Origin: Rhodobacter sp. | GTDB lineage: Bacteria; Pseudomonadota; Alphaproteobacteria; Rhodobacterales; Rhodobacteraceae | Length of the DNA stretch: 64,000 bases | NCBI GenBank assembly: GCA_020250175.1 | Contig: JADCEN010000028.1 | Location: 1-64,000 of the forward strand | Direction: 5' to 3' | Part shown: in pieces, positions 7,549 through 58,349 of the stretch | How positions within the stretch are numbered: position 1 is the first letter of the stretch | Layout of the letters: each line of letters starts with the position of its first letter | Program-made: the position numbers and the translations under genes | The notes under the pieces: generated by a model | Database searches by the model: none | What the model was told of the DNA's origin: nothing | Seen by the model: the letters and a program-made list of their open reading frames with translations, nothing else

Positions 7549-9357
<1,809 letters not shown>

Positions 9358-9381
9358 CGCCCCTCGCGCTACCCTCACGCC

Positions 9382-9561
9382 ATGAACACCGCAGACCCCG
9401 CCCCGATCATCCCCGAAACCGAACTTCGCCTCGCCGAGGCGAGGCTTGCGGCTTTTGACCGTGACGGCCTCGGCCACACGCTCGACGCCTTGCGCGAATG
9501 GTCCGCCGCCCGTGCGGCTGACCCCGCCACCCCATGTCCGCCCCCTACACCCTTGCGCTAA
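9382..9561 (+). CDS. Putative antitoxin of a ParE-type TA pair (copy 1)
   Basis: A 59-residue, mostly acidic protein (MNTADPAPIIPETELRLAEA...) whose last 28 bases overlap the start of a ParE/RelE-fold toxin gene. Small size, overlap and order (antitoxin first) fit a type II module; I recognise no DNA-binding fold, so its class is open. A near-identical second copy (172 of 180 bases by hand count) lies at 11321-11500. It begins 24 bases after the lepA stop. Confidence 0.65.
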   Translation: MNTADPAPIIPETELRLAEARLAAFDRDGLGHTLDALREWSAARAADPATPCPPPTPLR

Positions 9562-9845
9562 CGCCGGGTGCGCTGGCCGACCTCGACCGCCTCGACCAGT
9601 TCCTGCGCCAAAGGAACCCCTGCGCCGCCGACCGCATGCTGACGGCGATCATCAATGCCCTCACCCGCCTCACCTCCCACCCCCTCTCCGGCCGCCCCCT
9701 CCCCGCCTCCCCCCTGCGCGCCCTGATTGTGCGCTTCGGCAAAGGCGGTTATGTCTGCCTCTATGAGGTGAGGGATCATATGGTGCTCGTCGCCCGCGTG
9801 TTTCACGCGCGGGAGGACCGGAGCGGGGGAGGCGACCTGACATGA
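9534..9845 (+). CDS. ParE/RelE-superfamily toxin
   Basis: A 103-residue protein with the ParE layout: YTLALTPGALADLDRLDQFL (first strand and helix), a middle LTRLTSHPLSGRPLP segment, and the C-terminal strands LIVRFGKGGYVCLYEV and MVLVARVFHARED ending in the HxRE-like motif. ParE toxins usually poison gyrase; RelE relatives cut mRNA; the sequence does not decide which. It overlaps its antitoxin gene by 28 bases, and its TGA overlaps the ATG of the lepA-like micro-ORF (ATGA). Confidence 0.82.
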   Translation: MSAPYTLALTPGALADLDRLDQFLRQRNPCAADRMLTAIINALTRLTSHPLSGRPLPASPLRALIVRFGKGGYVCLYEVRDHMVLVARVFHAREDRSGGGDLT

Positions 9846-9952
9846 GTATGCGTCTTCTGGCAGGAGAGAATGTCGGCAAGAAGATGAGCCAGTTCGGCAG
9901 GGTGGAAATCCCGCAGCAGGCGTTTATGAATGCGTTGAAGATAGATGGGTGA
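9842..9952 (+). pseudogene. Micro-ORF carrying a copy of the LepA C-terminus
   Basis: Thirty-six codons (MSMRLLAGENVGKKMSQFGR...). The last 23 sense codons align without gaps to the end of lepA (60 of 69 bases identical: 9881-9949 against 9286-9354), in frame and up to the stop codon. The ATG overlaps the toxin stop and its TGA overlaps the GTG start of the next gene. It could be a remnant of a second lepA brought in by recombination, or a functional translational-coupling leader. I call it a pseudogene fragment of lepA because only the 3' end is present. Confidence 0.75.
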
Positions 9953-10857
9953 GGGATGTGACATTTGATTCTGATGAGTATCTCAAGGAAGAGCGCCTGC
10001 GGGAACGTCGGAATTCCAATGAATTATTGTGGGAGAACATCGAGGAAAGCCGTCGGTGGAGAATTTCCAAAAGGACTGAAGACAAGACTGACGCGGACAA
10101 GATCAGCATTCAATTTCACCACTACCATCCCGCTACGGCCCAATTCTACATTGCCTTTTCTGGAACAATCCAAGGAATTGCAAATGATTATATTCGCAGC
10201 ATACTCTTATATGGTGCCGCGCGCCGTGCAAGCTCAATTTTTCGTTCAATAACAAAACTACCAAGAGTCGCTCCACTCGGAAGGGAATCGCCGCTTTCCC
10301 AAGAAGAAATGACAGAGGTGAACGACTGTCTGCTGCTTCTTTATGTTCACTATATCGGGGTAATCGACGCATTTTCCATCGCATACACGCGAGTTGTACC
10401 GTCGCTAGAGCGGTGCAAAGAACGATACGCCGACTTGCTGACAGAGAAGTTTCGGTCGAAGATAGGCAGCTCAGAATTGGAGAAAATCTTTACACAAAAT
10501 GACGCGTGGCTTTTCAGGGTTAAAGACAAGTTGCTGAACCGGTTTGTCCATCGTGTCCCCCCCTACGTCCCACCCTCTGTGTTCAGGCCAGCCCACAAGG
10601 AGGAATTTGACCGACTTTCCGAGGAAGGCTCCAGAGCATTGGCCAAGCGAGATATGAATCTTTATGGTGAGATAGAGGAAGAAAAGGAGCGACTGGGCGA
10701 GTTCTTTCCATGGATATGTTTCATAGATGACAATGAGTTTATGCCATTTCATAGTACTGTTCTGGATGATTTGTTTCGGTTTCAAGTGCTGGCTCTGGAT
10801 TTGCTGGAAGAAATCTTGCCACGATGCACTGTTTCTGCCGTTCCCTCGGTAAAGTAG
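9949..10857 (+). CDS. AT-rich orphan protein of unknown function
   Basis: A 302-residue soluble protein, largely helical and charged, with no signal peptide or membrane segment. Base composition differs sharply from the surroundings: hand count of 10141-10200 gives 22 G+C of 60, and codon use is relaxed (ATA, TTA, AGA are common). The GTG start overlaps the preceding micro-ORF stop; a second in-frame GTG is three codons on. The segments LLLLYVHYIGVIDAFSIAY and LLNRFVHRVPPYVPP vaguely recall HEPN-type helical domains, but the catalytic R-x4-6-H pattern is not present, so this is only a hint. It looks horizontally acquired cargo, possibly defence-related because it sits beside a TA module. Confidence 0.7.
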   Translation: MRDVTFDSDEYLKEERLRERRNSNELLWENIEESRRWRISKRTEDKTDADKISIQFHHYHPATAQFYIAFSGTIQGIANDYIRSILLYGAARRASSIFRSITKLPRVAPLGRESPLSQEEMTEVNDCLLLLYVHYIGVIDAFSIAYTRVVPSLERCKERYADLLTEKFRSKIGSSELEKIFTQNDAWLFRVKDKLLNRFVHRVPPYVPPSVFRPAHKEEFDRLSEEGSRALAKRDMNLYGEIEEEKERLGEFFPWICFIDDNEFMPFHSTVLDDLFRFQVLALDLLEEILPRCTVSAVPSVK

Positions 10858-10904
10858 AGCGGGGTATTCCGGCTTCTGTGGAGCGTAAGGCACATCCCGT
10901 CTTG

Positions 10905-11220
10905 CCTGATTTGACCCCAGTCAAATCAGGCCGCGCCCGACCGCGCCCCATCGGGCGGGCGCGACTGCGCCCTTCCGGCGGTCTGGCGCGGCCTGAACCG
11001 GGCCGCAGCGCCAGCGGAGGGCCCCTTGCCTGCGTGCTTGCGCACTTCGGCAACGGCCCGGCGGTGCTTCCACTGGAAGCCCCGCTGATCGTGCCGGGGC
11101 GCCTTATTTCGGCAGGCTGCGTGCCAATGTGCGCCTTGGGTGCTGGCGCGGCAACGCGCCTGCCGGGGGCAGGCAGGCGCGGGCGTCGGGGCAGTGCCCC
11201 GACTTGACGCGGGTCAAATC
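10905..11220. repeat. Palindrome-rich repeat, copy 1
   Basis: Starts with a perfect hairpin at 10905-10930 (11-bp arms CCTGATTTGAC, 4-base loop) and ends with GGGTCAAATC at 11211-11220, which is the inverse of GATTTGACCC in that first hairpin, so the block has short terminal inverted repeats. Inside are GGCGCGGCAACGCGCC and a hairpin at 11185-11203 (GTCGGGGC arms). The 23 bases at 11142-11164 and the 3' end recur at 14087-14109 and 14199-14234 inside the glycerol operon. No gene is evident between 10858 and 11320. Confidence 0.7.
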
Positions 11221-11320
11221 CGTCAAGAAACAAAGTGTTGCGGCGAACACTGCGTAAGGGGCACGCCAACCGAAGCCCTGCTTCGGAACCCCATCCCGCC
11301 CCGCGCGCTACCCTTCCGGT

Positions 11321-11500
11321 ATGAACACCTGCGACCCCGCCCCGATCATCTCCGAAACCGAACTTCGCCTCGCCGAGGCGAGGCTTGCGGCTTTTGACCG
11401 TGACGGCCTCGGCCACACGCTCGACGCCTTGCACGAATGGTCCGCCGCCCGTGCGGCTGACCCCGCCGCCCCATGCCCGCCCCCTACACCCTTGCGCTGA
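11321..11500 (+). CDS. Putative antitoxin (copy 2, without a toxin)
   Basis: Second copy of the 59-residue antitoxin gene, intact and differing at eight of 180 bases by hand count from copy 1. Its partner toxin is broken after 13 codons, so this is an orphan antitoxin that could still neutralise the toxin of copy 1. The sequence just upstream (CGCGCTACCCT) is also shared with copy 1, so a short piece of the promoter/leader was duplicated too. Confidence 0.6.
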   Translation: MNTCDPAPIISETELRLAEARLAAFDRDGLGHTLDALHEWSAARAADPAAPCPPPTPLR

Positions 11501-11589
11501 CGCCGGGTGCGCGGCCTCCTACACCAACTGTTGGGACACGATCAACGGGCAACTGGTCAACGGAATTGGCCGGAGCGTGTGGGAAATAG
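11473..11589 (+). pseudogene. Truncated ParE toxin remnant
   Basis: The first 13 codons (MPAPYTLALTPGA) match the intact toxin at 9534, then similarity stops abruptly near 11513 and an unrelated 25-codon tail follows to a TAG. All catalytic and gyrase/ribosome-contacting parts of ParE are missing. The break point marks one edge of the duplicated block. The roughly 120 bases after it, up to the glycerol operon terminator, contain nothing I recognise. Confidence 0.75.
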
Positions 11590-13924: not shown

Positions 13925-14234
13925 CTGCAGGCCCGGTTTCCGAGACCGCTTGCTTCGGGGCCGCGGGCCGAAAGAAAACGCTGCGGGGCAGCGTTTTCCG
14001 GCCCGTTGCCCAAAAGGCCGGAGGCCGTTGGGCAAGGGGTGTCGGTACGGGCGCTGAACGTTGGAAATCGGGGCGCGCCTGACTGGGCTGGCGCGGCAAC
14101 GCGCCTGCCACGGAGTGATGAGCGATCAGAAATCGTCCGGTGGACGATTTCCGCGAAAAACGCCGCGCCCGTGGCGCGGCTGGGTGGCAGGCGCGACCGT
14201 CGGGGCAGTGCCCCGACTTGACGCGGGTCAAATC
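13925..14234. repeat. Palindrome-rich repeat, copy 2, inside the glp operon
   Basis: The 382-base gap between glpQ and the DUF2160 gene is filled by strong hairpins: 13975-13997 (AAAACGCTGC arms), 14130-14150 (AAATCGTCC arms) and 14199-14217 (GTCGGGGC arms). The segments 14087-14109 and 14199-14234 match copy 1 at 11142-11164 and 11185-11220. On the minus strand these hairpins would sit in the operon mRNA and could stabilise the upstream part or reduce read-through to glpV. Confidence 0.7.
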
Positions 14235-14285
14235 GGGTAAGAGAACCGACCAACTGCACAAGCTCTTGCCGGAGCGAGGCCATTC

Positions 14286-57140: not shown

Positions 57141-57932
57141 ATGGAACTTCGGGTTCTAAGGCGAATGCTTTCGGCCCTTCTTCGTTCGACGCGATCACTG
57201 GACATTGTTGTTATGGCGTTCAGCACACTACTTCTCGTTGTCTTGTGGGTAGTTTTCGATGGTAAGATGACGCCCGAAGGCCGACATAACCATGTATCTT
57301 TTTTCCCAATCAGTTCAGAAGAAGGTCAGAACTATTCAGTCGCAATTCTAGGACTTGAGTACCTTGGTAATGAAAGGGGAATGCTCGAAGGAGTTCTTCT
57401 TCGACCTGATAACTGTGATCCGATGTACCCTCCAAAAATTGGAGTGGCGCTTGAAAGTGATCTGATAATTGTGCAGGGGCTCAATGCTCTACTTGATAGG
57501 CGTGAGAACGAAATTCTCGTTGTGACGGGGAAAGACTGCGAGGATGTTTTCTTTGAGGTGCAAGGCGATTTCTTCGATGAGTACTCAGACAGGGTTGATC
57601 TATCTTTGTCATTGAACTTGGAGCAGAATTCATTAGATCAACGCACTACTATTTGGGGAATAGAGCATCTTGAAGGCCTGAATTGGCTCTCGTCAGGCTA
57701 TACCAAAACACCAAAGATTGACAATGATGGAAATCCTAGATTTGAATGGACTGGAAGTTATCTTGATTTAAGGTTTCAAGGTGCAAACCCTGCTGGTGCA
57801 ATAGACGCAAATCGATCAACATTCATTCTAGGCATAGCTCTCGGAACTCTTGCTTCGCTGTTTTCTGGGGCAACTATTTCTATGTTGTCCAGACTGAAAT
57901 GGTTCCGGGATCAGAAGGGTGAAAGCGAATGA
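57141..57932 (+). CDS. AT-rich two-helix membrane protein, probable acquired cargo
   Basis: A 263-residue protein with an N-terminal membrane helix (about 20-40, LDIVVMAFSTLLLVVLWVVF), a large polar domain and a C-terminal membrane helix (about 229-252, STFILGIALGTLASLFSG). The polar domain has paired cysteines (DNCDPMYPP, GKDCED). Composition is foreign: 24 G+C of 60 by hand count at 57301-57360. No family recognised. The ATG follows a GGGGATGGGG site; longer starts exist upstream. Its TGA overlaps the ATG of a copy of the next operon gene's 5' end (ATGA). Confidence 0.65.
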   Translation: MELRVLRRMLSALLRSTRSLDIVVMAFSTLLLVVLWVVFDGKMTPEGRHNHVSFFPISSEEGQNYSVAILGLEYLGNERGMLEGVLLRPDNCDPMYPPKIGVALESDLIIVQGLNALLDRRENEILVVTGKDCEDVFFEVQGDFFDEYSDRVDLSLSLNLEQNSLDQRTTIWGIEHLEGLNWLSSGYTKTPKIDNDGNPRFEWTGSYLDLRFQGANPAGAIDANRSTFILGIALGTLASLFSGATISMLSRLKWFRDQKGESE

Positions 57933-58146
57933 AACCCCTCATCCAACACGGCCTCATGTCCCGGAACCAGATCGAGGTCTCCTCTCCCGCCCCCCACCCC
58001 CATCCCCTCCCCACGAGGGGGAGGGGAGGCGCTTCTTCGGTTGACGTGGGCACTGGTGGCGGGCGGTTGGGCGCTCCCTCCCCCTTGTGGGGAGGGATGG
58101 GGTGGGGGGCCTTGGGCAAGCGCACTCGACATGAAGGGTATGCCCC
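57929..58146 (+). repeat. Copy 1 of the 58946 gene 5' end plus MITE-like palindrome
   Basis: The first 21 codons (MKPLIQHGLMSRNQIEVSSP and one more) align without gaps to the start of the gene at 58946 (49 of 63 bases by hand count). At the 22nd codon the sequence becomes a palindromic element (about 57989-58111) whose outer arms, CCCCCCACCCCCATCCC on the left and GGGATGGGGTGGGGGG on the right, are inverted repeats around a core of about 50 bases. The unit is repeated directly next to it. Confidence 0.8.
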
Positions 58147-58349
58147 ATGAAACCCCTCATCCAAGGCGGCGAGATATCCCGGAACCTGATCGAGGTTTCC
58201 TCTCCGGCCCCCCACCCCCATCCCCTCCCCACGAGGGGGAGGGGAGGCGCTTTTTCGGTTGGCGTGGGCGCTTGGTGGCGGGCGTCGGGTGCCTCCCTCC
58301 CCCCGTGGGGAGGGTTGGGGTGGGGGGCCTTGGGCATGGGGCGGGACGG
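58147..58349 (+). repeat. Copy 2 of the 58946 gene 5' end plus MITE-like palindrome
   Basis: Second unit in tandem with the first: 21 codons starting MKPLIQGGEISRNLIEVSSP, differing from copy 1 at nine of 63 bases, followed by the same palindromic element (about 58207-58329) with a core GGCGCTTTTTCGGTTGGCGT. It ends at the start of the DUF559 gene. Confidence 0.8.

Follow-up and report, generated by a model that had tools for sequence, protein, structure and literature searches.

We analysed a stretch of 64,000 nucleotides from Rhodobacter sp. (contig JADCEN010000028.1, positions 1 to 64,000; hereafter the window) in which lepA, the gene of elongation factor 4, is followed by a toxin-antitoxin (TA) pair of the ParDE type, a copy of the lepA 3' end (lepA', hereafter the relic) and an AT-rich gene that we call cargo (Table 1). 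Comparison with other Rhodobacteraceae points to a slot behind this translation factor gene that recurs throughout the family and in which one or two genes are probably exchanged.

The lepA locus in the window and in its genus

The final 23 lepA codons before the stop (9286-9354) recur at 9881-9949 with 60 of 69 bases identical, without gaps and with the frame and TGA kept. The runner-up among ungapped 69-base matches to the lepA end in the window reached 38/69, which rules out a chance repeat as the source of the relic. Local alignment of the relic to the lepA end gave 63/68 at 9878-9945, and comparison with the lepA ends of other genera extended it back to about 9854. Its 36-codon frame, read from 9842, matched LepA_C at 20.6 bits, under the curated cut-off of 29.7. 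The ATG at 9842 overlaps the stop of the ParE toxin, and the GTG at 9949 overlaps the TGA of the relic. The toxin is of the ParE family with a small antitoxin gene upstream, as in ParDE systems; the antitoxin was called from its position only and had no Pfam match. A second antitoxin lies at 11321-11500, inside the TA2 block. The initial annotation had already described the recurrence, in frame and ungapped, between a toxin gene and an AT-rich gene, the overlaps on both sides and the second antitoxin, and each of these points was borne out; the dispersed repeat at 10900-11236 was not among them.

Table 1. Features at the lepA locus of the window
Feature	Position	Strand	Remarks
lepA (elongation factor 4), intact	7558..9357	+	translation; start codon picked by eye; final codons GAC TCC TGA
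Final 18 lepA codons	9301..9354	+	synonymous sites here differ between cargo-bearing and cargo-less loci of the family
TA1 antitoxin-like open reading frame (ORF), 59 amino acids (aa)	9382..9561	+	ORF; present also in G001, G004, G005, G414
ParE toxin (TA1)	9534..9845	+	PF05016, E 2.7e-16
lepA 3'-end copy (lepA', relic), open frame	9842..9952	+	start overlaps toxin stop; stop overlaps cargo start
AT-rich cargo gene, 302 aa	9949..10857	+	one relative, in G017, directly 3' of lepA
Dispersed GC-rich palindromic repeat, right end of slot	10900..11236	.	dozens of same-genome matches
TA2: second antitoxin and start of truncated toxin	11297..11512	+	94% to 9358-9573

The cargo gene has a GC content of 47.3%, against 64.4% for the window. 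Its product matched no Pfam or PADLOC model and had no relative in genome contigs, viral contigs or plasmids; among 394 genomes of the family we found a single one, directly behind lepA in G017 (39-41% identity), so that both known members of this cargo family adjoin lepA. The predicted structure was mostly helical and too poor to interpret (mean predicted local distance difference test score 49). Elsewhere in the window, a 190-base direct repeat (57929-58118 and 58147-58336) has copies 85% alike with 28 bases between them.

We compared seven genomes of the genus, the window genome included (genomes and loci are designated below by G and L numbers). All four with ParDE behind lepA (the window genome, G001, G004 and G005) have a relic behind the toxin. 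They have the lepA-TA-relic segment in common at 91.5-95.3% identity, and a recent duplication confined to the window genome was thus ruled out. In the compared pairs the homology spans lepA, ParDE and the relic and ends 0-4 bases past the relic stop codon, the sequence diverging afterwards. In the window the relic is followed by the 302-aa gene. An unrelated gene of 281 aa takes its place in G001, a gene of 353 aa lies there in G005 (its group mates in G247 and G457 are weak matches to SIR2 models), and G004 keeps no more than an AT-rich remnant. Two further members, G002 and G003, have no ParDE at lepA and other AT-rich genes directly behind it, and G006 has no AT-rich segment there.

TA2 is longer in G005 than in the window and looks older than the split between the two, because the sequence preceding it is the same in both. 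The frame formed by TA1, relic and TA2 looks older than the species split, and the changing part is the gene behind the relic. The two antitoxin blocks of the window are nevertheless 94% alike, closer than to any sister's, which points to probable gene conversion between them. At L122 (G414), in another genus, lepA has the same end, GACTCCTGA, and is followed at an equal distance by a related ParDE pair; AT-rich DNA comes after the toxin and no lepA relic was detectable there.

A slot behind lepA across the family

Survey loci were anchored by tblastn with the window lepA and were those nearest in lepA-end sequence among the matches listed (L232 and L233 were chosen out of rank order; we left out L101, which is a second lepA-like gene, and three loci whose sequence was too short). 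Fifteen extra loci were picked otherwise: seven for a second match, plus the genus members and G017. The slot was scored as bearing cargo when the 800 bases behind lepA, or behind its copy, were more than 8 GC points below lepA; cargo therefore means AT-rich here, and GC-rich cargo such as ParDE scored "no".

An AT-rich segment followed lepA at 65 of the 129 survey loci (76/144 with the 15 extra ones). It holds one or two genes and is over within about 1.8 kb: outward from the stop, the fraction of 250-base intervals more than 10 GC points below lepA was 0.37, 0.49, 0.53, 0.40, 0.25, 0.17, 0.09, 0.02, then 0 to 0.02 (at most 2% beyond 1.75 kb). This return to normal GC rules out a prophage or a large island. 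With nearly the same measure, and taking the best 30 matches among 61 genomes for each control gene, we found such a segment behind recA in 0 of 29 loci and behind pheT in 2 of 30. Outside the family it was rarer behind lepA than inside (3/25, with one genome per family and the best-matching loci only). The slot is thus small and commoner in this family and, given the preference for lepA over the two control genes, no general property of core gene ends. A second, diverged lepA-like gene (L101, on contig 17 of G078; 76% identity) also has AT-rich DNA behind it, the main lepA of that genome being on another contig.

The cargo turns over rapidly. On a lepA tree of 134 rows its presence required 44 changes, where 100 shuffles gave 38-53, and thus showed no more tree signal than shuffled labels. 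In 15 same-genus pairs, homology ended 0-7 bases before the lepA stop in ten and 0-4 bases past the relic stop in the four with a relic; it continued in a single pair, of which both loci are cargo-less. Since the relic is not under lepA constraint, the stop of homology at the relic does not merely reflect the end of a coding region. Unrelated genes that vary from genome to genome while their address is conserved characterise hotspots of defence genes and horizontal gene transfer, and this is what we observed at lepA.

A script picked ORFs in 75 of the 76 slot loci (one in 56, two in 19; none in L058, which has a slot), and the main ORF lay on the lepA strand in 56/75. The 90 slot proteins of at least 90 aa formed 72 groups at E 1e-5 and were mostly unrelated. 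Names given by Pfam and PADLOC included AbiU/AIPR, GmrSD, HEPN, FRG, Schlafen AlbA, RelA/SpoT, TIR, PDC-M32A, PDC-S15, PDC-S59, PDC-S60, Tle1-like, DUF4062 and DUF2971, together with ordinary families such as GcrA and a glyoxalase. Of 40 proteins drawn at random from the 69 main ones of at least 150 aa, 26 matched no PADLOC model (E 1e-3), and 10 of 20 slot proteins checked singly matched no Pfam family. A 240-aa cargo family had eight members in 395 genomes (query included), of which seven lie within about 0.7 kb behind lepA (0.66 kb in G308); the weakest member is not behind lepA. Eight of the eleven members of the 281-aa family are away from lepA (L304, L306-L312). lepA is a strong but non-exclusive home for these genes.

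The lepA tail, the relics and the borders

We compared the lepA tails of 68 cargo-bearing and 67 cargo-less loci, none of which has a lepA copy. Further up lepA, the GC content at third codon positions was equal in the two sets (0.863 and 0.861). The final 10 codons differed with cargo (p 3.6e-8 and 9.3e-9 for two five-codon blocks); among the remaining 18 five-codon blocks, -16 to -20 gave p 0.002 and -61 to -65 p 0.03. Codon by codon and within amino acids, cargo was associated with positions -2, -9, -10, -12, -15 and -18 (p <0.004; best 5.5e-7), and with 0 of the 56 codons from -19 to -74 at p<0.01. Several codons just before -18 are nearly invariant in all genomes, and the limit of the tail may therefore extend to about codon -26. 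The signal is not a mere shift to A+T, because cargo-bearing loci favour GGG over GGC at -18 and CAG at -12. It was the same at the 16 loci whose cargo gene runs opposite to lepA (p 5.5e-5), which makes translational coupling an unlikely cause. Phylogenetic confounding was considered as well and rejected, the presence of cargo being scattered over the lepA tree like a shuffled label; an earlier 57-row tree, superseded by the 134-row one, gave the same direction at the tail sites. Pairs of cargo-bearing loci were nearer each other in the tail than to cargo-less loci (p 0.003).

The genus Paracoccus offers a near-empty site. Behind lepA, two strains of P. versutus as well as P. ferrooxidans and P. 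pantotrophus carry lower-GC DNA of about 1.1 kb, and the corresponding interval of P. denitrificans holds 349 bp of different sequence, with flanking homology of about 92-94% on both sides; the site is thus a replacement and no clean insertion. Within lepA, the final 33 bases show 6 differences where about 1.8 were expected (p about 0.01, for a stretch chosen after looking).

Relics are not confined to the genus of the window. Nine loci have a same-strand lepA end that starts 75-584 bases past lepA, and G398 adds a tenth, short one; weaker partial matches in G311, G216, G249 and G174 were not scored. Relics adjoining lepA were found in 8 of 376 family genomes with a lepA match (the window genome, G001 and six others). 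They measure about 50 to 187 bases, and the 800 bases that follow are AT-rich for every relic except that of G004 (G398 was judged by its profile). Between lepA and the relic lie ParDE in the genus of the window, and short DNA without recognisable gene in G312, G068 and G137. In G375 there are two small ORFs, which we take for DUF4160 and DUF2442, and at L097 (G261) the first 0-590 bases behind lepA hold, before the relic, what is presumably a GIY-YIG nuclease-like ORF amid repeats.

For the last 57 bases of the relic, the lepA end of another genome beat the own one in 9/9 loci, and the three best matches were all cargo-bearing loci in 7/9. The portion before these 57 bases was clearly native in G068 (0.85 vs 0.80 for the next); in G261 and G137 the own lepA came first or second, nearly tied, and in the other six this portion was not recognisably native (in the genus of the window it covers only 23-50 bases and is weak). 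We read the relics as probable old lepA ends, mostly with a foreign tail and cargo, displaced outward by a newly added end and its unit; for the genus of the window, the relic may alternatively be a donor end brought in with the cargo.

On the right, palindromic repeats related to that of the window end the slot cargo in several genera. They occur at some borders only, and since the model was built from 14 of those, their count is partly circular. The same kind of GC-rich intergenic palindrome is also present at 14186-14242 of the window. Rfam at the gathering threshold gave no match on six loci. In L121, L153, L195, L201, L204, L214 and L219, the reverse complement of the lepA 3' end lies just behind the lepA stop, and several of these inverted repeats continue GGGCGAAAGCGATT-like. 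The units that lie between lepA and relic have a gene-end repeat on their far side; we looked for one at the right end of the AT-rich cargo and found none.

No integrase was seen among the Pfam families listed (25 of 46) for the 90 slot proteins, the rest of the genomes not having been searched for one. The cargo-type lepA tail matched no phage record and the degenerate tail pattern no viral contig. Thirteen plasmid records (0.1-4.6 Mb) did match, and in the two annotated ones that we examined the match lies inside a full lepA gene.

Proposed route of exchange and comparison with known systems

We think it probable that the lepA 3' end in this family is an exchange slot at which "lepA tail plus one gene" cassettes, with no integrase of their own, are swapped by recombination that has its anchor in lepA. 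Each unit would consist of the last ~55 lepA bases and one short foreign gene, often anti-phage-like, and would replace another: incoming DNA, brought by a gene transfer agent, transformation or conjugation, would recombine with the resident lepA on the left, its right side would join somewhere behind the old cargo, and lepA would remain intact and acquire the donor tail. Sometimes the new end would be added in front, the old one persisting as a relic with the older cargo behind it. In the window, the ParDE unit adjoins lepA, the relic comes next, and the 302-aa gene behind it occupies a slot that holds other sequences in three sister species. The anchoring of the left side in lepA, the variable join on the right, the tail transferred along with the cargo and the occasional left-over ends together suggest one-sided homologous recombination. 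The gene transfer agents of Rhodobacter capsulatus move fragments of about 4.5 kb, which are integrated by allelic replacement (PMC9690577).

The initial annotation seems to have recognised a true scar. Of the donor segment that it proposed (lepA end, cargo and TA), the lepA end and the cargo do seem to travel together: the G017 relative of the cargo lies directly 3' of an intact lepA in another genus, and the last 57 bases of the relic are nearer the cargo-bearing lepA ends of other genera than the own one. The inclusion of TA2 in a recent donor segment was not supported, in view of the identical context that precedes it in the window and in G005 and of the TA1 and relic common to four species. 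The alternative proposed there, a mobile unit carrying a gene-end copy, agrees with the apparent transfer of the tail and not with the lack of any integrase seen or of a lepA relic at the right end of the AT-rich cargo. Vertical conservation of the block in the genus, named there as a ground for refutation, gave a mixed picture, with lepA-TA-relic in 4/7 members and a different cargo in each.

Several results weigh against exchange by lepA-anchored recombination as we propose it. The route itself was not observed. Of the 215 codons between -75 and -289, about 6 also reached p<0.01, including three in the stretch -75 to -99 (lowest 6e-4). Tests on independent pairs kept the direction of the tail signal, and single sites were not significant in them (median p 0.11 to 0.51). 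The tail likeness of cargo-bearing pairs was not higher than that of cargo-less pairs (0.600 vs 0.628). The three best matches of the relic tail were all cargo-less in G068, and one of three was in G137. Same-genus pairs without a relic may lose homology at the lepA stop partly from the end of the coding region. The 281-aa family has only 3/11 members near lepA. Finally, PADLOC matched 14/40 slot proteins and 3/20 control ORFs taken 3-6 kb downstream, which is not a significant excess (p 0.14), so that the defence role of the cargo is a reading drawn from the kinds of families encountered. This role and the recombination route are what we infer, and the data show directly the slot, its preference for lepA over the two control genes, the turnover of cargo, the association with the tail and the relics.

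Other explanations were weighed against the same evidence. A dedicated trans-acting system could recognise the lepA 3' end and perhaps the right-end palindromes and swap cassettes of lepA tail plus one defence gene across the family, as an integron-like defence locus anchored in a housekeeping gene, the duplicated gene ends then recording earlier swaps; we consider this unlikely. Of the signs expected from a dedicated recombinase, a gene-end repeat on the right of the cargo, clean empty sites and, among the slot families listed, an integrase are missing. We are similarly doubtful of site-specific integration, in which an integrase encoded elsewhere would insert non-autonomous elements at the lepA 3' end, their attachment site, and the elements would restore that end. 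In favour of it are the left border at the stop of lepA or relic, the tail varying with cargo up to a limit near codon -18, the palindromes at some right borders and the repeats of the lepA end, which flank ParDE in the four sister species and other short units in another five genera. However, the lepA end that should mark the right border of the AT-rich cargo was not found, the relics vary in length, the Paracoccus site is a replacement, and the searches of the listed slot families for an integrase, of phage records for the cargo-type tail and of viral contigs for its degenerate pattern were all negative.

Exchange of alleles within each genus at a hypervariable spot, the lepA copy being an old tandem duplication and the tail shaped by selection acting locally (on transcription end or structure, for instance) instead of transfer, seems decidedly unlikely to us. 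It fits the conserved downstream flanks of many same-genus pairs, the inverted repeat that the lepA end forms with the following DNA at some loci, the decay of relics and a tail that is not one uniform sequence; it fits poorly with cargo families that recur behind lepA across genera, with a tail association that persists for opposite-strand cargo and with relic tails that are mostly nearer foreign cargo-bearing lepA ends than their own. Very improbable, lastly, is a functional leader ORF that would be kept for coupling the translation of the toxin operon to that of the cargo. The relic start and stop do overlap both neighbours in the window, and G001, G004 and G005 too have an open frame that ends in this stop, but most changes of the window copy relative to lepA alter the protein, the relics of G068 and G137 contain stops, and in G001 and G005 the cargo ORFs begin 26 and 39 bases behind the aligned relic end.

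An address at which about half of the sampled species hold a replaceable and often defence-like gene would be a place to mine for new single-gene defence systems and a natural record of how defence-like genes move; through its cargo-varying tail and its relics, the route of exchange can be tested in relatives that are culturable and make gene transfer agents. We found no description of the lepA slot in open-licence papers, those naming lepA having been checked by passages in part.

Some integrative elements insert at gene 3' ends and restore them. The lepA slot resembles them in that a gene end is carried along and gene-end repeats lie beside it, and differs in that no integrase was seen, the right end of the cargo has no repeat, and the one near-empty site examined shows replacement instead of insertion. 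Integron cassettes are mostly single genes exchanged at one address, as here, and palindromes are present at some right ends of the slot; in contrast, the anchor is lepA coding sequence and no integron integrase was seen (no dedicated search for it or for attC/attI was made). Homology-facilitated illegitimate recombination of transferred DNA has one homologous and one non-homologous junction, a pair that would yield the borders and relics observed, and to our knowledge it is not known to exchange single genes repeatedly at one address. Hotspots of gene transfer or of defence genes on chromosomes (PMC5635113, PMC9122126) share with the lepA slot a fixed address and a fast turnover of unrelated, partly defence-like genes. 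Unlike these hotspots, the lepA slot holds one or two cargo genes with no carrier element seen, and it has its border within a coding gene, the tail of which varies with the cargo.
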